Positions 140 to 9,936 of a DNA stretch of 9,936 nucleotides are shown here, in pieces. Source of the stretch: an uncultured Lachnospiraceae bacterium. GTDB lineage: Bacteria > Bacillota_A > Clostridia > Lachnospirales > Lachnospiraceae. The stretch covers positions 1 to 9,936 of the forward strand of contig CAMYVI010000083.1 in the NCBI GenBank assembly GCA_947302185.1, written 5' to 3'. The notes beneath the pieces were generated by a model. That model worked only from the letters and a program-made list of their open reading frames with translations. It was not told the DNA's origin and ran no database searches. The position numbers and the translations under genes were made by a program. Every line of letters starts with the position of its first letter. The stretch's first letter is position 1.

Positions 140-403
140 TCACTCCAGAATATCACATTTTATGAGGACACCGAGAAATTCCCGAGTATCCGACTCCGCA
201 GTCTCCCTGTCCACCTCGTACTCATCCATCATGGCTTTAATAAGGGTCTCCTCGTCCGTATCTTCCTGCAGTTTCTGCCAGAGGAAATTTCCGGTCTCAT
301 TGATCGTGATCAGCCCGTTCAGTTTGAGCGCCATCTCACCCGTCGGTACAATGATGTACTCATCCGCTATTTCTCTCACTACAAATTCATTTTTGACTTT
401 CAT
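140..403 (-). CDS. PqqD-family protein (RiPP recognition element)
   Basis: An 87-residue protein of usual PqqD length. PqqD-type proteins are small winged-helix proteins that bind the leader of a precursor peptide and present it to a modifying enzyme, often a radical SAM-SPASM protein. The family pattern is clear: an N-terminal beta region (REIADEYIIVPTGE), then LNGLITINETGNFLW leading into the first helix, then a helical half with YEVDRETAESDTREFL and a hydrophobic end. I chose Met at 403 because AAAGGG lies 5 bases upstream (414-409). A start at 421 would add six charged residues and has no clear ribosome site. The gene overlaps the end of the protease gene by 17 bases, so translation is probably coupled. 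It is the last gene of the operon in view. Family assignment is firm; the partner peptide is inferred to be the product of 4093-4383. Confidence 0.85.
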   Translation of the reverse strand: MKVKNEFVVREIADEYIIVPTGEMALKLNGLITINETGNFLWQKLQEDTDEETLIKAMMDEYEVDRETAESDTREFLGVLIKCDILE

Positions 404-983
404 AGGTTCCCTTTCTCGCAATATTACAGTATATGCTGTAGACTTTTATGCATACAGGTCTGAACAGCACCATCCGTATCCAAATTCTCTCAAAAAAGTC
501 CCAAAAAGCATCTCCGCTTTTCAGAACCTTACCCTTTCGTTCAACCGCCGTCGCCAAAGCAGCAATCTGGCTCTTCCTGACCGGTCCTTCAATATAGGTC
601 TGTGCATCACCGACCATATAATAGTTCTCTCCGGATATCCTTTTGATTCTATGTAAGACATATTCGCCGTTCTGTCTGCGAAAAAGTACAATGTCCCCGA
701 CAGAGAGCTCACGGAACGGTTTTTCGAGTACTACGTGGTCACGCCCATCGGCAAGAAACGGAGTCATACTGCCGCCGGCAATCAACAGGCTGACCGACCT
801 ACCCTCATTCATGATAGAAAGCAGCAGATCAATATACTCTTCTGTCCTTACCTTTCTGATATCGGCCGGCAGGTCAGCAGCTGTCGGCACAGCGCCCCGC
901 AGAAACGACGATAGAAGCAGTGGACATGCTCTCTGCCCCGCTGTCAGGTATTTCTTAGCAGAATTATCCCTCATCTGTGTCAT
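387..983 (-). CDS. S24/S26 signal-peptidase-like protease, Ser/His type
   Basis: A 198-residue protein with the signal peptidase/LexA-like fold signature. The likely nucleophile is Ser72 in GGSMTPFL. The second conserved block, GDIVLFRRQNGEYVLHRIKRI, has His111 where bacterial signal peptidase I has the general-base Lys. The third block is YYMVGDA (Asp126). A His in this place is typical of archaeal/ER-type and SipW-like enzymes. There is no clear N-terminal membrane anchor; residues 1-50 look soluble. The C-terminal part (about 160-188) is aromatic and hydrophobic with scattered Arg/Lys, perhaps an amphipathic membrane contact. The start overlaps the preceding gene by 20 bases, and GGTGAG lies just upstream of the ATG. 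Inferred role: cleavage of the peptide leader, or of the VWA or membrane-anchored partner. It could instead be a non-secretory S24 peptidase. Fold assignment is strong, substrate unknown. Confidence 0.8.
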   Translation of the reverse strand: MTQMRDNSAKKYLTAGQRACPLLLSSFLRGAVPTAADLPADIRKVRTEEYIDLLLSIMNEGRSVSLLIAGGSMTPFLADGRDHVVLEKPFRELSVGDIVLFRRQNGEYVLHRIKRISGENYYMVGDAQTYIEGPVRKSQIAALATAVERKGKVLKSGDAFWDFFERIWIRMVLFRPVCIKVYSIYCNIARKGTYESQK

Positions 984-2022
984 ATATTCTCACCATCAGT
1001 ACTTTGCTGAAGCCTGTTGCATAGTGTGACGGACTCACTGTAACTTTACTGCCTTCTGTGAGATCACTGATTTTTACTGTATAAGTGATGCCGCCGACAT
1101 ATGCATCGTTTTCCTCACTATAGAACTTGTAGTAAATGCGCACGACAGGAATATCCTTATTTGAAATATTCTCAACTATAAGAGAATTATTCTCACCCTC
1201 AGTAACAATAACTTCTCCTTCAGACATCTCAAGTTCATCAAGGCGGGCAACTGCAGCTTCGCACCTTCTCCATGAGATATCCTCTCTCATTGCTGCAGCC
1301 TCTTTTTCCTGAACTACCGCCACGCCGCCCGCCGGAATATCTGTACATATAAACACGAATTGCCCTGCTGTTCCGGATAATTCGACTTCTGCGTATTCTA
1401 CAGCTTCGTCTCCTGTATTTTCAAGGATGATGGCTGCAATACCCTCTACTTCGGTGTCAGACCCATCTTCCAGGAAAATACCGTCGTAAGCCGAAATCTT
1501 CCTTACGACAAGATTCCTGTCTGGTATACTGTACGGAAATGAAATATCCTCTGTAATTCCCGGAGTCGGAGATACTTCCGGGTTCTCGTTACCGGGGCTG
1601 TCTATTCCGATATTATCCCAGGTGATTCTTTGAGAAGAGATGCTGTGATTCGTCATTTCTCCCTGATTGCCTTCATCACCCTGATAATTGTTGTCCTCAT
1701 AATAGCCGTCAGAAGATCTGTCATCAGCAGTATCCGAGGTGATGTTTGACGCCTCTCCGACCTCTTTATCCTTCGCTGATTCTTCCGAAACAGCTTCATT
1801 TGCAGACTCAACAGGCCGTCCATCTGACTGATCGATATCACTGCTGTCTTCACCTTTACTATCAGACGAATACGCATTCACATTTCCGCTATCATCTGTA
1901 ACTGCAGTCTGTACCGATATATCGTCTGCGGTATTGACCGACATCTGCCGGTTGAAAAGCACGAAAATTAATATCAAAACTACTACAGCGCCTATAGCAG
2001 CCATTACTTTTTTATCTTTCAT
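964..2022 (-). CDS. Membrane-anchored Asp/Ser-rich protein with two beta-type ectodomains
   Basis: I do not recognise a named family. The 352-residue protein begins with a short basic stretch (MKDKK) and one hydrophobic helix at about residues 7-23, which fits a signal anchor without an obvious cleavage site. Residues about 30-160 are low complexity, rich in Asp, Ser, Glu and Asn, as in an extended wall-spanning linker. Two beta-rich segments follow at about 163-245 and 268-350, with alternating hydrophobic patterns (EGIAAIILENTGDEAVEY; NSLIVENISNKDIPVVRIYYKF) resembling Ig/FxLYD-like folds. Cys226 and Cys254 are its only cysteines. The start is fixed by AAAGGAGG 5 bases upstream (2035-2028), embedded in the end of the interrupted radical SAM reading frame. 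The end overlaps the protease gene. Inferred: an extracellular partner or receptor for the peptide or the VWA protein. Confidence 0.75.
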   Translation of the reverse strand: MKDKKVMAAIGAVVVLILIFVLFNRQMSVNTADDISVQTAVTDDSGNVNAYSSDSKGEDSSDIDQSDGRPVESANEAVSEESAKDKEVGEASNITSDTADDRSSDGYYEDNNYQGDEGNQGEMTNHSISSQRITWDNIGIDSPGNENPEVSPTPGITEDISFPYSIPDRNLVVRKISAYDGIFLEDGSDTEVEGIAAIILENTGDEAVEYAEVELSGTAGQFVFICTDIPAGGVAVVQEKEAAAMREDISWRRCEAAVARLDELEMSEGEVIVTEGENNSLIVENISNKDIPVVRIYYKFYSEENDAYVGGITYTVKISDLTEGSKVTVSPSHYATGFSKVLMVRIYDTDEG

Positions 2023-2215
2023 TGCTGCCTCCTTTCAGTATTTCTTTTTCCACCTGTCTCAAGGCATCCGGATAGGCTGCTGCCATCTCACATCGATAGG
2101 CCGGCACTTTTGAATACTCTCCTGTCTCCGCCTGTGCCATCGCGGCGCATGCCCGGCATTCCCCCCGGGCCGCGCAGTCTGTACACTTTGCCGGCAGTCG
2201 AATCTCAGCCGCAGC
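2012..2215 (-). pseudogene. Severed SPASM tail of the radical SAM gene
   Basis: Directly after the TAA at 2218-2216, the same reading frame runs on for 67 codons to a TAA at 2014-2012, and its translation is a typical SPASM C-terminus. Counting the stop as codon 313, it carries Cys324, Cys327, Cys333 and Cys336 in KCTDCAARGECRACAAM, then AETGEYSKVPAYRC with Cys355. These cysteines normally bind the auxiliary iron-sulfur cluster(s). There is no frameshift and no good ribosome site for separate translation, and the only internal Met (339) lies after four of the five Cys. The frame overlaps the next gene by 11 bases, as expected for an originally coupled gene. One base change (for example GAA to TAA) explains the break. 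Mutation, sequencing error or readthrough cannot be told apart here. Confidence 0.85.
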
Positions 2216-3154
2216 TTACATTGTTTTTACCCAAGCATCACTGAACCCGATTGAGAACACTTCGGGAGCATTTTCCGATATGACCATACCGCATGGCAGC
2301 ATGCGTCCATCCCACGTGACCCAAAAGCTGCTTTTCCCGGCACGGCATCTGATTCCTTCCCCCTGCTCCAAGCAGGTTTCATCTATGTCTGAGGGAAGAG
2401 CAAAGCTTCGTGTCTTCATTCGCTCCAGATACTTCTCGTCACCATACTGCAGCCGTTCCGCGAGTGCCGTCACATATGCAGCTTCCTTCGGGGCAAACCG
2501 GTCATTGGTCCCGACCAAGTCTTTGCTCTTTCGCATCGGCGGAAACATATATGCAGTAGTCTCAAGAATAAGCTTTTGATCTTTCGCATAGTTCACCATC
2601 GCTTCAAGGTCACATACGTTATATGGCGTAAGACTGCAGTTGAGCTTGACAGACAGCCCTGCCTCCCGCAGCTTTTCAATCGATTTTCTGACTCTTGTAA
2701 ATCCGTCCGGCAGGCGACACAGGCGTCCGTATGTTTCATCCGAAGCTCCGTATAACGTAACATTGAGCCTCGCAGGCGGTGTGTTTTTAAGCCATGAGAT
2801 AACTCTCTCATCAATCAGAGTTCCGTTGGTATTAACAGAAATCACCAAACCGATTCTATGCAACTCTGTGAGTATATCCTCTAAATCCGGCCGGCTGAAG
2901 GGTTCTCCTCCTGTTATAAGAAGATACAACATGCCACGCTCTGCTGCGTCCTTTCCTAATTGTATCCACTTTTCTGCCGGGAAAAGCGCATGCTGTTTTT
3001 CCTGCTCCTCCTTGGAAAGCCTAATATAACACATTCGGCAGTTCATATTGCACAGGGGAGTAAGTTCAAATGTCCCACCGAGCGGTATCCTGCGCTGTGT
3101 AGCCTTTCGGTACATATATTCTGTTAAAGCCGGTTCACGAGGCAAATCAATCAT
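2216..3154 (-). CDS. Radical SAM peptide-maturase-like enzyme, C-terminally truncated
   Basis: A 312-residue open frame with the radical SAM cluster motif CxxxCxxC at Cys35-Cys39-Cys42 (LCNMNCRMC). The usual barrel signatures follow: LLITGGEPFSRPD (79-90) for SAM binding, SVNTNGT (106-112) and LNVTLYGASDETY (130-142). The first half of a SPASM domain is present, with Cys270 (IRCRAGKSSFWVTWDG) and Cys288 (LPCGM). The frame stops at codon 313 with TAA, while the rest of SPASM is intact just downstream (2215-2012), giving a natural length of about 380 residues, normal for this family. Such enzymes typically build thioether, carbon-carbon or related crosslinks in peptides, with a PqqD-like partner as encoded at the operon end. 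The start ATG lies 7 bases after the kinase stop; GGGAGG is about 12 bases upstream, a long spacing. Without the auxiliary cluster ligands the 312-residue form is probably inactive. Confidence 0.85.
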   Translation of the reverse strand: MIDLPREPALTEYMYRKATQRRIPLGGTFELTPLCNMNCRMCYIRLSKEEQEKQHALFPAEKWIQLGKDAAERGMLYLLITGGEPFSRPDLEDILTELHRIGLVISVNTNGTLIDERVISWLKNTPPARLNVTLYGASDETYGRLCRLPDGFTRVRKSIEKLREAGLSVKLNCSLTPYNVCDLEAMVNYAKDQKLILETTAYMFPPMRKSKDLVGTNDRFAPKEAAYVTALAERLQYGDEKYLERMKTRSFALPSDIDETCLEQGEGIRCRAGKSSFWVTWDGRMLPCGMVISENAPEVFSIGFSDAWVKTM

Positions 3155-3161
3155 TTCAGAG

Positions 3162-4013
3162 TCATACCTCCCTTATTAGTTCCTCCTTTAGTATCCTGAC
3201 GGCCCCCTCATCCGGGAGACATGTCAAGCGATACGCAGGCACATCTTTTACCAGTTCCAGAATGTACGCTGAAGCCTCTCTGACATATTCACTGTCCCAC
3301 TGGTGGATCAGGGTTTCAGGATAAAGGGCTTTAAAGGCCTCCACTGGACTTAATCGTCTTACAGTGTTCTCTTTTCCCTGCCCCAGCATCACAATTGCAG
3401 TCAGAGGGGCCGATTCATTTCTGTAAATACCCGATGTCCCGGCATAAGGAAGTCCGTAAGCGTTCCATCTGCCATCCGATTTTCTTATACCGGTCCGATC
3501 CCCGTTCAGGCATTCCGCTTTCTCATATTTAATCCACAAATCCGCCTGCGTTGATTTACCTGTTCCGGATGGAGCAGAAAAAATGATACCGCAATTTCTC
3601 CAGCGAATAAATGATGCGTGGACAATGAGACCGTGATGATTTAAAAGAAGCCTCTCGAGAGACAGGTGATCTACAAAGTCCCGCGAATACTCCATGAAAG
3701 AAACAGCATTTCGGGTATATGCGATATTTATATGCCGTTTTCCATAAACCGCACATGCATATGGCGGTTTCGATTTATTAGGGAAGTAATAGACCTCCTC
3801 CCCATCACTTATGCTATAGAATAATCTGTTCAGTTTCCAGGTTCCCTTATCTTTCGGCTTGCTGATCTCCGTCTCCTCAAAAAAAGAGACTTTTACATCA
3901 CAGAAAATATCTGCCTTCTTCACCAGAAACGGGACAGATTCCTCCAAAACCTTAAGCTCAAATGGAAGTTCACAGCATATTCCGATTCCCGCAATACTAT
4001 AATTAAAACGCAT
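3162..4013 (-). CDS. HPr kinase/phosphorylase-like P-loop protein
   Basis: A 283-residue protein with a Walker A loop SAPSGTGKST at about residues 146-155, preceded by a conserved His132 (LIVHASFI) and followed by LNGDRTGI (Asp172) and GLPYAG, the order seen in HPr kinase-like proteins linked to RiPP clusters. Canonical HPr kinase phosphorylates Ser46 of HPr; the diverged relatives in lasso peptide clusters phosphorylate peptide Ser. The N-terminal 130 residues are beta-rich without the usual HprK N-domain. I place the start at 4013: AGAGGG (4026-4021) lies 7 bases upstream. The longer start at 4061 falls in the loop of the terminator at 4027-4072 and has no ribosome site. The next gene starts 7 bases after the stop, so these two are tightly coupled. 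Substrate is inferred to be the 96-residue peptide; not the housekeeping HprK, given context and divergence. Confidence 0.8.
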   Translation of the reverse strand: MRFNYSIAGIGICCELPFELKVLEESVPFLVKKADIFCDVKVSFFEETEISKPKDKGTWKLNRLFYSISDGEEVYYFPNKSKPPYACAVYGKRHINIAYTRNAVSFMEYSRDFVDHLSLERLLLNHHGLIVHASFIRWRNCGIIFSAPSGTGKSTQADLWIKYEKAECLNGDRTGIRKSDGRWNAYGLPYAGTSGIYRNESAPLTAIVMLGQGKENTVRRLSPVEAFKALYPETLIHQWDSEYVREASAYILELVKDVPAYRLTCLPDEGAVRILKEELIREV

Positions 4014-4020
4014 CAAAAAG

Positions 4021-4026
4021 CCCTCT
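4021..4026 (-). promoter_or_regulatory. Ribosome binding site fixing the kinase start
   Basis: AGAGGG on the minus strand, 7 bases before the ATG at 4013-4011 and directly after the T-run of the terminator. It supports the shorter protein start, since no comparable site precedes the ATG at 4061. Confidence 0.6.
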
Positions 4027-4072
4027 AAAAAAGCTGCCGCATCAGACGAATTATCCGTCATTCAGCGGCAGC
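4027..4072 (-). terminator. Intrinsic terminator between peptide and kinase genes
   Basis: On the minus strand an 8-bp GC-rich stem, GCTGCCGC (4072-4065) with GCGGCAGC (4040-4033), is followed at once by six T (4032-4027). Inside it an upper 4-bp stem (4059-4056 with 4048-4045) closes a 7-base loop. It starts 20 bases after the peptide stop codon and ends just before the kinase ribosome site. No promoter with both boxes is visible between it and the kinase gene, so readthrough must supply the downstream genes; it probably sets a high peptide-to-enzyme ratio. Confidence 0.8.
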
Positions 4073-4092
4073 CTGAGACTAACTGTCAATTA

Positions 4093-4383
4093 TTACACAG
4101 ATCCGAAAATACCCACGCCTCCTGTGGGCCCATTGTAACAGCCGATTCCAAGGTCATAATCCAGATCCACTATCTCTGTACAGATACCCTCCGATAACCA
4201 ATAAGTAACTGGTTCATCCCCGAAATCAGATTCATTCGAATAAAATCCACAGACACCAACATCTTGAAGGGTCGGTTTGTAATTATCATACCCGGATACC
4301 GGCGTCCCGCAATTTTTCGCTATACTCTGCGTCAGAGCAATCGACTCTATCGTGATTTGTGGTTTTTTATACTCTTTTTTCAT
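4093..4383 (-). CDS. Candidate RiPP precursor peptide, four Cys, YxxP leader
   Basis: A 96-residue peptide, too short and biased for an enzyme and unlike any family I can name. The N-terminus is a charged helix-like leader, MKKEYKKPQITIESIAL, containing Y5-x-x-P8-x-I10. A YxxP motif with a following hydrophobic residue is the leader site bound by PqqD-like RRE proteins in lasso peptide systems. The rest holds Cys25, Cys45, Cys68 and Cys82, spaced 20, 23 and 14 residues apart and mostly next to Gly, and it ends in a Gly-rich tail (CYNGPTGGVGIFGSV) with a penultimate Ser. There is no signal peptide. The start is set at Met 4383 because GGAGG (4393-4389) lies 5 bases upstream; the ATG at 4395 overlaps that site. 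The gene begins 15 bases after the VWA gene and is followed by a terminator. Precursor role is inferred from leader, size, context and Cys content. Confidence 0.7.
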   Translation of the reverse strand: MKKEYKKPQITIESIALTQSIAKNCGTPVSGYDNYKPTLQDVGVCGFYSNESDFGDEPVTYWLSEGICTEIVDLDYDLGIGCYNGPTGGVGIFGSV

Positions 4384-4388
4384 AAACA

Positions 4389-4393
4389 CCTCC
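4389..4393 (-). promoter_or_regulatory. Ribosome binding site fixing the peptide start
   Basis: GGAGG, 5 bases before the ATG at 4383-4381. It overlaps the codons following the alternative upstream ATG at 4395, which makes the four-residue longer product unlikely. Confidence 0.65.
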
Positions 4394-4398
4394 ATGTA

Positions 4399-7300
4399 TC
4401 ATCCAAACAGACTTGCAAGACCGCCAAAGAGGCTCTTCAGAAGCTGATTTATGACACCCTGTAACCTCGCACTCTTCTTTGCCTGCGAAATCGCTGAAGC
4501 ATCGCTCTGAGTAGTACTCTTTCCCAAATCATACCCTTCGGGGTTCTCAATGGTGATGTCGTCTTCGTCGAGTAATACTGTTTCTTCTTCCTGCGTTTGT
4601 TCCGCATCCTGTTCTTCGATTTCTTCCTCTGTCAGAGGAGCTTCATCGCTGACCATGATTGGAAGCGCTCTGAAAGCCATAAGCGCAGCCGGCACATTCG
4701 ATACGTTGAGCGGTCCCATTCCTGCAGAAGATCCTTCTGTCGCCGGTGTGACTGCCCCCGTCATCCGAAGTTTCGTGATGGCTATCTTTCCGTCTCCACT
4801 ATTACTCACGATGATCTGATTTTCATCATTCGGCACCACTCTGTAGAAAAGATCCGTCGTATGATTGATATTAAGTTCCCTTGCTCCCTCATCATATGTG
4901 ACGGACACAGTTGCATCCGCTTCAAGCCTCTTGATTCCGAGATAATATGCGTTGGCACTTCCGGTAGTCTGGATAACGACTGACTGGTCTTTAGCCAGAT
5001 ATATTTCATTGAGCGGAGCCACTTTGCCGAGCTCACTGTTATTATAATCACCGACTGCAGATCCGCCGGCTTCAGTTCCGACCTCACAATTTGACGGAAC
5101 AATGAGGCTGATGGATGTAGCGTCTACCGTGCACTCGACAGCTCCGGATTCCTTCTGGGCAACACTGATCGTGCGTCCGGCCGTATCAACGATAGGTTCT
5201 CCGACAGCGTTGACGAATGTTCCCTTCTCCTCATCAAATGTTCCTCCGGTCGCAAGAATGATATCATCTGTGCCGTCAGAAACATATGTCTTCTCATCTC
5301 CGGACGGCTGATAATAAAGCTTATAGACCTGATCGACAAATGCGGCACTGCCCTCGGCAAAGAGTTCTCTCGCAATCGTAAATGTCGCGCCGAGTTCAGC
5401 GGCACCATATGCAGCCGAGACAACTGCATCGGATTCCAGATTCTGAATCGGATTATACACTCTTATACCATCGATATAATATGTAGAGCGTGTCCCTGAA
5501 GCATCCGTCTTTTTGCCTGCTGTAAGTTCAAGCTTATAGGTCCCGAAATCAAGCGGACCAAATGACAGGGTAGGAATCTGATAATAATCGCCGGATTTTG
5601 AATAATTATCAATTATCTTAGTCGCAATCATCTTGTTCGTACTGTCATAAAGTCTTGCTCTTACCTGACCTGCCTGTGTATTTGTTCTTGTGTAGACATC
5701 CACTCCGGTTCCTGTAAAATTAAATGTCACCTTAGCGCCTGAAGTAGTAGTCTTATGGGCAGAACCATCACTGTAGTCCTTGTCGGTAGAAAGTCCCGGA
5801 TCCTCACTAATCCATCCACCATGAACAAGATTATTGGCAGTTTCGGTGTTTTGACCCGGATTCGTAGTCTCTTCCTGAGACCAGGTTCCTGTGTACACAA
5901 ATCCCACGGCTGCGTTCAGATTGTCCTCTGCCATAAAATCATCTTCATAGTAAATATTGTTGGCAGGCATGACATCAATCTCATTATACATATAGAACTT
6001 GTCTGCTGTATCCGAAGTATTCTCGAATTTAACAGCACCGAACACCTTGTCCACGGTATTCATGAAACTGGTCATAGCATAATGGGAATTTGTCCTCTTC
6101 CCGACCGTGGCCAATGTAAACTTTCCGCTGCCGCCATCAGGTTCTGCCGCTGCCACAGGCGTGATAGCTCCGCTGCCAGAGACCGAGTACATCAATGTCA
6201 TATCCGTGCTGGCCACATAAGGCATATAGCCTGCCAAATCAGCGGTAAATCCTTGCGGGATCTTTGTCAAATCATTTGCGAGAATGTCAATATTTATCGG
6301 CTTAGCGTAGTCAATGACTGCGACATCCCTGGTCAGCTGCATTTTGGGAACAAGGTCATAGCGTACGCCGAAAGCTATATGAGAAGTGATGTGCCTATCG
6401 TCATACTCCTTGCCGGAATTATCATGTTCATATTTTTGTACATCTATGGTAGTCTGTGCGCCGTTCTGTGGTGGAACAGAGGCAGCTTCTGATGGTGCTG
6501 AAATTTCGAGCAGCGGCTCTAATACTGTGCCACTGGATGCACGTACCGTGTAAAATGCGTTAGGATCATACAGCACGTAGCCTTCTGGCAGGAAATCCTC
6601 CGCATTAATAATGGTGTTCTCAGAATGTAACACTGTCTTGTTGATCGGAAATTCTAAATGCTGCAAGTCACCGATCTGTATTCTCAGTGAGAACGGTATG
6701 ATCTGCCCCGTACGATTGACAGGGTTTCCGTCCTTGTCGACCAGATAATATTCAATATCCGTGACTGCATCCTTCCACACGGTCTGCGGTACAGGGAATA
6801 CACCCTGAATATACGAGTCTGTTATATCAAGATAAGTAATCGTTGCCTCGACATTGGTCTGCTCTGCGCCTGAACCATGCTGTCCTTCCATTGAACCTTT
6901 CAGGTAGACATAAAAGCTAAGGGATATCTCTTTGTCCGGAATATCACCGATACTCCAGTCAAAGGTCTCTTTGGCATTGCCGTGACCATCATCTACATCG
7001 GGATCTTTTGTATATGTGAAGTAGCGGGCATTTATTACAACTTTATTCCCTGATACAGTCATAATATTGGTCGCCCCGCCATTGATCTGGTCCGAATAAG
7101 CCTCATTTCCTTCTTCATTGAACGTAACTGTCTCAAGAGTAGTGGTCGTTCCGGTCCTGGTTCCGATGAGATCGGGACTTGGCGCAGTCTGCGCTGTGTA
7201 GAGATCATACGCCTTGACTTCCATATTCGGTACGCCGGCCGGGAAGTCAATGCGTGTGCTTGTCCCGTCCACATCACCTATAACATAGGATTTCGTTTCT

Positions 7301-9300
7301 ACCGTAAACTCTTGAGTATTGACTGTATCAATGACCTGAGCCTCAGTTCCGGCAGGCTTGATCAGATTGGCAAGGCTCCTGTAGAAAGCATCTAGCTCTT
7401 CCGCATCAGCAGTTGCGTTGACCGGGATTTGAGCATCGGTCACCAGGTTCTGCAGCAAATTCACCAAAGTTTCTTCGGTCCACTGGTAAGTGTTAAAGCC
7501 GCCATGCGCAAGATCAAAGCCAATCGCATAAAAATGTCCTTTAACCTGATCGTACAAGCTTTCACAGTAAGTGTTTCTATTGCTGCTGAAATAATTTGTC
7601 CATGCTTGCTGCGTGCCGTAACCGCCGCCGTTATAGTTTCCTGTACCGGTGGGGAGTTTATCTCTTCCCTGATCGCCGGCTGCAGTCTGTCCATTATAGT
7701 GTGACGGCGCTCCATCAGTCATGAAGACAATATAAGTATCACGGCCGGTACTGTTGTAATTTACATCCCACTTCGCAGCATATGCAGACTGAAGAGCGGT
7801 AACAGCAGCGCCTGCCTGTGTAAACGCATAATCATAGTTGGTATTACCGCGGTTGCGACCATTGACTAATACATTTCCGTTATTATCCGTGACTTTCAGC
7901 ATATAATCGCTTGTGTAACTGAGAGTAGTGTTTCTAAAGGAAGTCTGCGCCTTTGTAAAAGAGGTCTCAGCAGTAAAGACGGTCATGACTGAATCTACAT
8001 ATGTATTCTGATCACCCGCATTGTTTGAGCGTTCTTTATCATAACCTGCAAATGTCACAAAAGAGACTGTATTGTCATACTTGCTTCCGCCCGGACTCGT
8101 ACTATTGCCGCTTAGCAAAATCTCCGAAAAGCTTTCAGCCGCTGTCATAGCGTTTTCAAGCTTGGTTTTCTCACCGTCGCGTGCCCTTTTATCTGCGTCC
8201 GCTGTGTTGCCTGATCTCTCCAGAGACCACTGCATCGAATTTGAAACGTCGACAATCAGAACAACGTCAACACCCGGTCTGAGACCGACACCGGCTACAT
8301 CCAATTCAACTTTAGACAGACCGTAATCATCCATCAGATCGCTGGTCGCAGTTTTGTTAAGCTTTACAGCTCCTTCTTCAGGATACTGTCTGTTATTCGT
8401 CCCCGGTGATGCTCCATCAGAAATGTCACGATCAACGTTGACCTTGACAGAAGCAGATATAGGTTCGGCAAGTGCCGTGCCATTCACGCTTGTCAGAGTT
8501 GCTGTGACCATGGCAGAGCCTCGCTCGTAGCCCGTCACATTTCCATTTTCGTCGACTGTGACTACATCAGTGTCGGATGACGACCATGTTATCGTGTAGT
8601 TCGTAATTGTTGAGCCATCAAGTGCAACACTGCCGGTAATGGCTGCGCCGGTACCACCAGCAACAATGTCTGTCACAAAGGGGGAGAGCGTAAGGGTAGC
8701 TTCTCTTGAGCCTGTAACATTTTTTTCGTAGAGATACAGGGTGTTACCGGTAGTTCCAACACTCCAGCCGTTTGAGTAACGAAGATATCTGTCGCTGTAA
8801 TTAAGATTACGATATGCATTAAATGCATTACCATTCTGGCTGACAGTTATGTTGTTGTTATCGGTTGCATCCGACGTTAACGACAATACATTTTGCCCCC
8901 CTGTCCTGGTTATAGAGATAAATCTATCCTGATTCTTAATCCTATAGGCACCGCTGTTTTCTGTAAAAGTCCAGAGTACATTCGCTTCATTACTGATTGC
9001 TCCGGTGATAGTATTGTTGTTTACATTGACACCTGTGTCACTGACTATTCCGCTGTTATTTGTCAGCAGATGACTGTTGTTACCGGTTCCGGACACAATC
9101 AGATACTGATTACCGGATGTTATTGCACTCGTATGCCGCACATAGGTCGTCTCCCCCGGTATCTCCGCCGTCACTGTAACAGACTGCGAATCCGCAGCCA
9201 TGACCTGCTCCGCTGTGAACAGTGAAGTCACAGGGAGGGCAGTTATGACCATTATCAGAGTCATAACGATTGCCATAAGGTTTTTTCCCGTCTTATTCAT
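4399..9300 (-). CDS. Giant secreted VWA-domain protein with Ig-like and CBM-like domains
   Basis: A protein of 1633 residues. Residue numbers here count from the ATG at 9309, three residues longer. A Sec signal peptide (basic MNKTGKN, hydrophobic core 11-30, VMAADS at about 37-41) is followed by a lectin-like beta region (54-200), a bacterial Ig-like domain (205-292, with WSSSDTDVVTVDENGNVTG) and a von Willebrand A domain from about 346 to 650. The VWA metal site is visible: DVSNS (Asp354, Ser356, Ser358), the VTF segment near 418-420, and FMTDGAPSH (Asp532). Long beta-rich regions follow, including a jelly-roll/CBM-like domain near 1160-1287. The C-terminus has an acidic stretch (1557-1585) and an amphipathic tail rich in Leu, Phe and Gly (1617-1636). 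There is no LPxTG sortase signal and no transmembrane anchor, so surface attachment is unexplained. AAAGGAG (9316-9310) is 9 bases before the ATG at 9300 but touches the one at 9309, so I use 9300. Likely an adhesin or binding protein; ligand unknown. Confidence 0.85.
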   Translation of the reverse strand: MNKTGKNLMAIVMTLIMVITALPVTSLFTAEQVMAADSQSVTVTAEIPGETTYVRHTSAITSGNQYLIVSGTGNNSHLLTNNSGIVSDTGVNVNNNTITGAISNEANVLWTFTENSGAYRIKNQDRFISITRTGGQNVLSLTSDATDNNNITVSQNGNAFNAYRNLNYSDRYLRYSNGWSVGTTGNTLYLYEKNVTGSREATLTLSPFVTDIVAGGTGAAITGSVALDGSTITNYTITWSSSDTDVVTVDENGNVTGYERGSAMVTATLTSVNGTALAEPISASVKVNVDRDISDGASPGTNNRQYPEEGAVKLNKTATSDLMDDYGLSKVELDVAGVGLRPGVDVVLIVDVSNSMQWSLERSGNTADADKRARDGEKTKLENAMTAAESFSEILLSGNSTSPGGSKYDNTVSFVTFAGYDKERSNNAGDQNTYVDSVMTVFTAETSFTKAQTSFRNTTLSYTSDYMLKVTDNNGNVLVNGRNRGNTNYDYAFTQAGAAVTALQSAYAAKWDVNYNSTGRDTYIVFMTDGAPSHYNGQTAAGDQGRDKLPTGTGNYNGGGYGTQQAWTNYFSSNRNTYCESLYDQVKGHFYAIGFDLAHGGFNTYQWTEETLVNLLQNLVTDAQIPVNATADAEELDAFYRSLANLIKPAGTEAQVIDTVNTQEFTVETKSYVIGDVDGTSTRIDFPAGVPNMEVKAYDLYTAQTAPSPDLIGTRTGTTTTLETVTFNEEGNEAYSDQINGGATNIMTVSGNKVVINARYFTYTKDPDVDDGHGNAKETFDWSIGDIPDKEISLSFYVYLKGSMEGQHGSGAEQTNVEATITYLDITDSYIQGVFPVPQTVWKDAVTDIEYYLVDKDGNPVNRTGQIIPFSLRIQIGDLQHLEFPINKTVLHSENTIINAEDFLPEGYVLYDPNAFYTVRASSGTVLEPLLEISAPSEAASVPPQNGAQTTIDVQKYEHDNSGKEYDDRHITSHIAFGVRYDLVPKMQLTRDVAVIDYAKPINIDILANDLTKIPQGFTADLAGYMPYVASTDMTLMYSVSGSGAITPVAAAEPDGGSGKFTLATVGKRTNSHYAMTSFMNTVDKVFGAVKFENTSDTADKFYMYNEIDVMPANNIYYEDDFMAEDNLNAAVGFVYTGTWSQEETTNPGQNTETANNLVHGGWISEDPGLSTDKDYSDGSAHKTTTSGAKVTFNFTGTGVDVYTRTNTQAGQVRARLYDSTNKMIATKIIDNYSKSGDYYQIPTLSFGPLDFGTYKLELTAGKKTDASGTRSTYYIDGIRVYNPIQNLESDAVVSAAYGAAELGATFTIARELFAEGSAAFVDQVYKLYYQPSGDEKTYVSDGTDDIILATGGTFDEEKGTFVNAVGEPIVDTAGRTISVAQKESGAVECTVDATSISLIVPSNCEVGTEAGGSAVGDYNNSELGKVAPLNEIYLAKDQSVVIQTTGSANAYYLGIKRLEADATVSVTYDEGARELNINHTTDLFYRVVPNDENQIIVSNSGDGKIAITKLRMTGAVTPATEGSSAGMGPLNVSNVPAALMAFRALPIMVSDEAPLTEEEIEEQDAEQTQEEETVLLDEDDITIENPEGYDLGKSTTQSDASAISQAKKSARLQGVINQLLKSLFGGLASLFG

Positions 9301-9309
9301 ACTCTCCAT

Positions 9310-9427: not shown

Positions 9428-9456
9428 AATATATACTTAATCCCAATATAAGTCAA
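9428..9456 (-). promoter_or_regulatory. Upstream sigma-A-like promoter of the operon (P1)
   Basis: TTGACT (9456-9451), a 17-base spacer, then TATATT (9433-9428), in AT-rich surroundings. The predicted start near 9421 gives a leader of about 120 bases ahead of the VWA gene, which would contain the repeats at 9369-9396. Boxes are seen directly; use is inferred. Confidence 0.65.
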
Positions 9457-9559: not shown

Positions 9560-9610
9560 AAAAAGCCCGGAGACCCAAATCACTGCTGTATCGGGTTCTC
9601 CGGACTTTTT
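9560..9610. terminator. Bidirectional intrinsic terminator after tatD
   Basis: An A5 run (9560-9564), a GC-rich stem (9565-9572 with 9598-9605, one G-T pair) extended by CCC/GGG after a small bulge, and a T5 run (9606-9610). The T-run exists on both strands, so it can end transcription both ways. On the minus strand it lies about 20 bases after the TatD stop and separates tatD from the VWA operon. Confidence 0.85.
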
Positions 9611-9630
9611 CTAAATTCACTATATTACTG

Positions 9631-9936
9631 TCACTTATCCGGAAAACCAAATAAAGCTCTCGCGTTCTCCTCGGTTATCCTTATGACATCTTCCTCCGAA
9701 ATCTCTTTGATCCGGGCGATCTCCCGAACAACATAGGGCAGATACAGAGACGAGTTTCTCTTACCCCTGAATGGGACCGGGGCCAGATAAGGGCAGTCGG
9801 TCTCAAGGATCAAATATTCCATCGGCGTGTCAGCAACAACTTCCTTCAGCTTCTTCGCGTTCTTGAAGGTAACGACTCCTCCGATGCCCAGGTAAAAACC
9901 GAGCTTTCTCGTGTAAATGCGGGCCTGCTCGACCGC
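9631..9936 (-). CDS. tatD: TatD-family metal-dependent hydrolase/DNase, C-terminal part
   Basis: The last 101 codons of a gene that starts beyond the right edge; the frame is open to base 9936, so the Met at 9822 is internal. The translated end matches TatD: YLGIGGVVTFKNAKKL, then the highly conserved LETDCPYLAPVPFRGKRNSS, in which the Asp of ETD is a metal ligand, then YLPYVVREIARIKEIS and a terminal NARALFGFP typical of the family end. TatD proteins are TIM-barrel amidohydrolase-like enzymes with 3'-5' exonuclease activity on DNA. This is a housekeeping gene, closed by its own terminator and not part of the operon to the left. Confidence 0.9.
   Translation of the reverse strand, partial: AVEQARIYTRKLGFYLGIGGVVTFKNAKKLKEVVADTPMEYLILETDCPYLAPVPFRGKRNSSLYLPYVVREIARIKEISEEDVIRITEENARALFGFPDK

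Follow-up and report, generated by a model that had tools for sequence, protein, structure and literature searches.

The 9,936-nucleotide stretch of DNA analysed here (the window; contig CAMYVI010000083.1 of an uncultured Lachnospiraceae bacterium, assembly GCA_947302185.1) carries a seven-gene operon that probably, though far from certainly, specifies an undescribed class of ribosomally synthesized and post-translationally modified peptide (RiPP). In this class a radical S-adenosylmethionine (radical SAM) enzyme would stand in place of the lasso cyclase, the precursor would be capped at a Ser at its C-terminus, and a giant surface protein would be its partner. A chance grouping is excluded, because the same genes recur together in other genomes, in the same or a permuted order.

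Gene content of the operon

As had been predicted, an operon is present: all seven named genes lie on the minus strand, from 9309 to 140, and neighbouring open reading frames are closely packed or overlapping. The original prediction had counted eight genes or parts; the gene count is seven, and eight is reached only when the radical SAM gene is taken as two parts. The RiPP-like block that it had described, with leader peptide, RiPP recognition element (RRE), radical SAM enzyme, kinase and protease, is indeed there, recurs elsewhere and is linked to the giant. The features are as follows.

9309..140, minus strand: seven-gene run of giant VWA-type protein, YxxP peptide, HprK-like kinase, radical SAM enzyme, FxLYD protein, S26 protease and PqqD
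4399..9309, minus strand: giant secreted surface protein, 1636 aa
8236..8265, minus strand: MIDAS-like (metal-ion-dependent adhesion site) VVLIVDVSNS, residues 349-358, in the VWA-type region
5437..5970, minus strand: CT1, beta-sandwich resembling a carbohydrate-binding module (CBM), residues about 1114-1291, common to giants with differing N-termini
4450..5097, minus strand: CT2, second conserved stretch (consensus GPxNEVYL ... TDMYY) with acidic linker
4402..4473, minus strand: C-terminal tail, of a kind that is amphipathic in roughly one giant in two
4093..4383, minus strand: precursor peptide, 96 aa, with four Cys (25, 45, 68, 82) and C-terminal F-G-S-V
4318..4383, minus strand: conserved leader MKKEYKKPQITIESIALTQSIA with YxxP motif; cleavage predicted after Ala22
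4099..4101, minus strand: Ser95, putative phosphorylation site
3162..4061, minus strand: HprK-like kinase, 299 aa, PF27840 label; His148, GxGKST 166-171, Asp188
2216..3154, minus strand: radical SAM maturase, 312 aa, ended by TAA within the SPASM region
2021..2215, minus strand: rest of the radical SAM reading frame past the stop, 65 codons, bearing the other SPASM cysteines
964..2022, minus strand: membrane-anchored acidic FxLYD-domain protein, 352 aa
387..983, minus strand: S24/S26 signal-peptidase-like Ser/His protease, 198 aa
140..403, minus strand: PqqD-family RRE, 87 aa

Family scans back each assignment but two: neither the kinase nor the VWA region reaches the cut-off of any Pfam family, and these rest on homologues, motif and predicted fold. 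The window's radical SAM protein matches Radical_SAM (PF04055, E 2.9e-24), and the RRE exceeds the cut-off for PqqD (PF05402, E 2.4e-17), its nearest NCBIfam being lasso_PqqD_Bac at 31.3 bits, under the cut-off of 80. The protease exceeds the cut-off for peptidase S24 (PF00717, E 1.1e-6) and stays under that of TIGR02228 (5.7e-8); its Ser/His motifs were found in 26 of 32 proteins by pattern and in the remaining six by eye. The FxLYD domain (NF038353, E 1.9e-5) is barely over cut-off. A Shine-Dalgarno-like sequence and the relatives favour 4383 as the most likely start of the peptide, rather than the listed frame start at 4395.

Recurrence of the gene set and linkage to the giant

A contig scan for the kinase gave at least 506 relatives, from which 80 loci were kept, mainly from Lachnospiraceae, Oscillospiraceae and other Clostridia. 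Profile searches of these loci, many of them cut by contig ends, matched radical SAM in 73, PqqD in 61, the peptide in 54, the giant's C-terminal (CT) module in 41, FxLYD in 41 and S26 in 28; an earlier giant profile had matched 42 loci, one of them (L031) spuriously. In the gene-neighbourhood check that had been proposed with the original prediction, the set recurs across Clostridia and is linked to the giant. The kinase also occurs apart from the CT module in two metagenome assemblies, one recorded as Actinomycetota (L066) and the other as Bacteroidota (L070).

In 397 genomes sampled from the family to which genome G001 belongs (kinase threshold E <= 1e-10), the CT module is found in 16 and the kinase in 89; all 16 module-positive genomes carry the kinase, with 3.6 expected (hypergeometric 1.3e-11), four of them (G001, G008, G017, G020) having been reached earlier via kinase loci. 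As to whether the giant and the maturase block occur independently in relatives, which had been put forward as evidence against their link, the answer is one-sided: 73 of the 89 kinase-positive genomes have no CT module, whereas none of the 16 module-positive genomes is without the kinase. Linkage also holds at short range. Among 24 genomes chosen through their kinase loci, the kinase lies within 7.2 kb on the same contig at 32 of 33 CT places, and among 15 genomes located solely through CT it is that close at 15 of 22; of the other seven places, four abut the end of a contig, G302 accounts for two (one of these 9.9 kb from a kinase) and one is weak (G486). Extra CT copies within a genome are also near a kinase, save for a weak partial match in G013. 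The module itself is uncommon: a class-level sample of 391 genomes has it in 3, and one of 71 genomes from another family likewise in 3 (G010 belongs to both).

Two further genes keep company with the giant. The peptide gene lies less than 400 bp downstream for 44 of the 59 giants whose 3' end is complete (one gene counted twice) and elsewhere on the locus for 10, and FxLYD occurs mainly with the CT type (17 of 24 CT anchors vs 2 of 19 non-CT anchors). These observations bear on the alternative that the peptide is secreted to serve as a bacteriocin or signal and that the giant is a surface neighbour in a shuffling locus, without functional contact. The precursor layout is bacteriocin-like, an ABC (ATP-binding cassette) transporter is found within 10 kb of 11 of 24 CT and 13 of 19 non-CT anchors, and the many kinase-positive genomes lacking the module would fit such a role. 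The constant presence of the kinase with the module, the extra copies that share this neighbourhood, the closeness of peptide gene and giant and the FxLYD preference argue against it, and we regard this alternative as rather unlikely.

Precursor peptide and kinase

In an alignment of 26 peptides, Y-x-K-P is invariant in the leader, and so are C-Y and the terminal F-x-S. A leader-only pattern, which ignores the C-terminus and is free of circularity in this respect, retrieves 61 peptides in 51 of the 80 loci, and 59 of these end in Ser, as compared with 8.1% Ser overall. A looser pattern gives 104 candidates, 75 with a C-terminal Ser, most of the others resembling chance frames. The peptide profile and the 26-peptide alignment include the C-terminus and bias towards Ser the counts obtained with them: C-terminal Ser in 52 of 54 CT-type and 18 of 18 non-CT profile matches, Ser in one of the final two positions in 72 of 72 (seven of 79 matches having been dropped as lying more than 3 kb from a same-strand kinase) and, among the best 120 of 531 database homologues, Ser at the end in 114 and one residue before it in six. 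These best 120 homologues hold four Cys in 111 cases and five in nine, with Ala before the first Cys in 119.

A second, longer class of Ser-ending peptides, with a leader that often reads ...YVAAC, is encoded beside the same kinase in L054, L059, L062, L070, L075 and L080, with radical SAM, PqqD or S26 genes nearby, no giant, and more than one copy in some loci.

The kinase matches no Pfam-A family at cut-off, the PF27840 label being a pre-label of the protein database, and scores 14.2 and 17.1 bits against the HprK-related kinase A and B families TIGR04352 and TIGR04355 (cut-off 200). It has 1862 homologues at E <= 0.001, and its predicted model (mean pLDDT 89.9) adopts a PEPCK/HprK-type fold, with PEPCK as the best match and HprK/P chains also among the matches. 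A sequence search of the PDB with the kinase and CT alignments gave no convincing match (3nqh, E 0.14, in line with the fold result). The P-loop Lys, the His and the first Asp are kept in 104 of 104 kinase copies. In this regard, the published accounts of lasso peptides cited here describe HprK-type kinases that phosphorylate the C-terminal Ser of the precursor, a residue that is conserved in the company of a homologous kinase gene, and a nucleotidyltransferase that then adds hexose (PMC9266682, PMC8498205); for another lasso system an RRE is described as speeding phosphorylation, at Ser3 (PMC10368454).

Giant surface protein and its C-terminal module

The giant combines a signal-peptide-like start, Big_2, a VWA-type region, a CBM-like module, an acidic linker and an amphipathic C-tail. 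Big_2 is the sole Pfam family over cut-off in the window's copy; the same scan gave no VWA match, the MIDAS-like DVSNS occupies residues 354-358, and a relative in L001 has VWA_2 over cut-off. Among relatives the N-terminus varies (VWA, GH20, GH88, sialidase-like, PA14) and the CBM-like C-terminal module is conserved. VWA was accordingly rejected as the linked element, its region profile matching 24 of 43 giant-family rows, some of the remainder being N-truncated, and the predicted link of the maturase block to a VWA protein as such does not stand: the VWA part is exchangeable and the C-terminal module is the constant element. The model of the module has a mean pLDDT of 61, and its fold matches past CT1 are unreliable; its Foldseek list includes unrelated proteins with low TM-score. 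The giant as the RiPP substrate was also considered, and no support was found for it.

A single shared cell-wall anchor was rejected, since a loose amphipathic-tail pattern fits 28 of 59 complete C-termini (a set that takes in the window's own and holds one gene twice, as L038/L046). Giants without the tail in L089, L090, L098, L028 and L053 end, as judged by eye, in SLH-like, sortase-like or dockerin-like sequence, which suggests that the amphipathic tail is itself a surface anchor. The window's tail is a weak amphipathic case (moment control fraction 0.06, aromatic p 0.115). At L024 an extra VWA protein with SLH domains (5884-8409) is encoded close to a GH20-type giant.

Proposed pathway

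The findings presented here allow a pathway to be sketched in which PqqD would bind the Y-x-K-P leader and present the precursor, and the radical SAM/SPASM enzyme would modify the Cys-rich core, most likely with carbon-sulphur cross-links. Following the lasso-kinase model, the HprK/PEPCK-fold kinase would phosphorylate the Ser at or beside the C-terminus, and a genome-encoded NTP_transf_5 protein may attach a sugar or nucleotide to the Ser phosphate. The conserved Ala before the first Cys and the Ser/His protease motifs lead us to infer that the S26 protease cuts the leader off after this Ala. At the cell surface the product would work together with two proteins, the FxLYD membrane protein and the giant; the latter would handle glycans or serve in adhesion, and its CBM-like C-terminal module would be dedicated to the peptide system.

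A more specific reading, which we offer as speculation and consider very improbable, is that the peptide is a docking tag and not an antibiotic: its C-terminal phospho-Ser would be glycosylated by NTP_transf_5 and the resulting sugar-phosphate-peptide recognised by the CBM-like module of the giant, so that a single conserved tag, which FxLYD would hold at the membrane, would dock exchangeable surface effectors such as adhesins, sialidases and hexosaminidases.

If the proposed RiPP pathway is correct, a set present in dozens of Clostridia genomes unites a radical SAM RiPP, lasso-type Ser capping at the C-terminus and a giant modular surface protein, of a type associated with the handling of glycans from hosts or plants, a combination that was not met among the matches listed in the open literature searched. 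This could explain why some gut bacteria devote a RiPP pathway to surface biology, and it offers two points open to testing: the rule that peptides encoded next to this kinase have Ser at their end, and the CBM-like module as partner.

Evidence against the proposal and alternative readings

Several observations weigh against the pathway as sketched. The first concerns the kinase. The lasso kinases are described as requiring a His-Lys-Asp-Asp catalytic set (PMC9266682), whereas Arg or Lys directly follows Asp188 in 104 of 104 copies of the present family, so that kinase activity may differ or be lost. This replacement of the second Asp speaks for a role in which the HprK-like protein regulates the pathway in a nucleotide-dependent manner, or acts in it as a phosphatase, rather than as a peptide kinase; given the other catalytic residues, retained throughout, and partner peptides that follow the C-terminal Ser rule, we hold such a role to be distinctly unlikely. 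The Ser rule has its own departures: two CT-type peptides (ending GSY and SST) and the window's peptide, which ends GSV, run one residue past the Ser. The GSV end is shared by a 93% identical peptide from another contig and by one more distant relative.

The second concerns the core. Only one to three Cys are present in 5 of 18 non-CT peptides, and three in 4 of 54 of the CT type; judged from these peptides, Cys cross-links are no rule for the wider family. The radical SAM enzyme might instead form a three-residue cyclophane or other carbon-carbon cross-links at C-Y and the terminal F-x-S, leaving the Cys as extracellular disulfides. Radical SAM enzymes have precedent for cyclophane formation, and both motifs are invariant in the alignment, with Phe at -3 in 44 of 54 CT-type peptides. 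Since conservation is about equal for the Cys and the aromatics (four or five in each of the best 120 of 531 homologues), we consider this chemistry improbable next to carbon-sulphur bonds.

The third concerns the window itself. Its radical SAM gene has an in-frame TAA at 2216-2218 and reads as nonsense-interrupted, whereas the 119 other homologues among the best 120 of 5024 are full length (376-411 aa) and SPASM is complete in the relatives aligned. Of the radical SAM-SPASM protein that had been predicted, the Radical_SAM domain is matched and the SPASM part falls outside the frame as it stands. The locus could therefore be a decaying pseudo-operon, a reading that we find doubtful, if the least so of the alternatives. 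The six other genes are open, a 93% identical peptide is encoded on another contig, and the 90% cluster of the radical SAM protein holds a second member, its length not given. The next 65 codons are open and still conserved with their SPASM cysteines, and the stop would accordingly be recent or an assembly error.

Finally, the linkage has limits. The kinase-CT link is clustered but not of single origin, because the HprK tree needs 18 CT-label changes (34 in shuffles, none of 500 as low), with a label made noisy by clusters nearby and by contigs that break off. Giants linked to the kinase were the source of the CT profile, which may overlook divergent giants that lack this link, and no peptide was found on the locus for five of the 59 giants. 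NTP_transf_5 occurs in 37 of 38 kinase-positive genomes (exception G323) vs 2 of 20 kinase-negative ones, figures that cover 38 of more than 100 HprK-positive genomes, leave out the kinase-positive G486 and take as controls the first 20 listed rather than a random draw. S26 and NTP_transf_5 are each within 10 kb of only 8 of 24 CT anchors.

Surroundings of the operon

9428..9456, minus strand: sigma-70-like promoter match 5' of the giant gene, 10 of 12 consensus positions, a match to consensus only, of which the window holds 24 vs 16.9 expected
9631-9936: tatD fragment, upstream of the operon

A likely terminator, an inverted repeat with a T-run at 9561-9611, has the tatD fragment on one side and the operon on the other; its stem at 9591-9603 is listed on the plus strand, and the longer repeat was judged by eye. 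An Rfam scan of the window gave no RNA-family match.

Around many anchors lie an ABC transporter, NTP_transf_5, CpsB/CapC, a Cps-type AAA/Wzz protein and Ig-like surface genes, which suggests that the kinase clusters are tied to exopolysaccharide loci. In L048, L008, L054, L059, L067 and L076 the kinase cluster adjoins exopolysaccharide-type genes (CpsB/CapC-like, Cps-type AAA/Wzz), with an ABC transporter or NTP_transf_5 in varying sets (Pfam check on L048). At L005 an exo/endonuclease/phosphatase-like protein with a signal-peptide-like start (8352-9989; below or near the Pfam cut-off) is encoded between peptide and kinase.

Comparison with known systems

The set had been predicted to be possibly undescribed, and it appears to be so: NCBIfam has no family at cut-off for the peptide, the kinase, the radical SAM enzyme or PqqD, and no description of the gene set appears among the matches listed in the open literature searched.

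The closest likeness is to phosphorylated lasso peptides (paeninodin PadeK, ThcoK, SyanK; pseudomycoidin PsmK/PsmN, PsmN being presumably a PF14907 member), with which the operon shares a YxxP leader, a PqqD-type RRE, an HprK-type kinase, the C-terminal Ser rule and nucleotidyltransferase and ABC transporter companions. Unlike these, it has a radical SAM enzyme in place of the cyclase, an S26 protease in place of B2, a core of some 60-75 residues that is rich in Cys, a kinase in which Asp-Arg/Lys replaces Asp-Asp, and a giant surface protein with an FxLYD partner. The B2 leader peptidase (PF13471) exceeds its cut-off in one of 38 HprK-positive genomes, on a contig without that genome's kinases, falls below it in one more (G294) and is absent from the window; no asparagine-synthase-like cyclase was matched by Pfam among the eight window proteins scanned, the genomes not having been searched for it. 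The one contig with B2 (G012 C41) carries a likely lasso cluster, the PF13471 match lying between two NTP_transf_5 matches.

The SynChlorMet cassette (ScmC/ScmD/ScmE/ScmF) likewise joins HprK-like, PqqD-like and radical SAM/SPASM proteins, and we know of no giant protein in it. Its equivalogs, where they match at all, stay below cut-off in the window (ScmC 16.3 of 125 bits, ScmE 69.8 of 400) as well as in L001 and L054. Radical SAM RiPPs with Cys cores (sactipeptides and ranthipeptides; StsA/StsB, PapB) resemble the present system in the SPASM radical SAM enzyme of the relatives and in the Cys-rich core, and the leader of one non-CT relative resembles StsA (7.8e-5, below cut-off). From these the operon is set apart by its kinase, its C-terminal Ser, its S26 protease and its giant surface partner.

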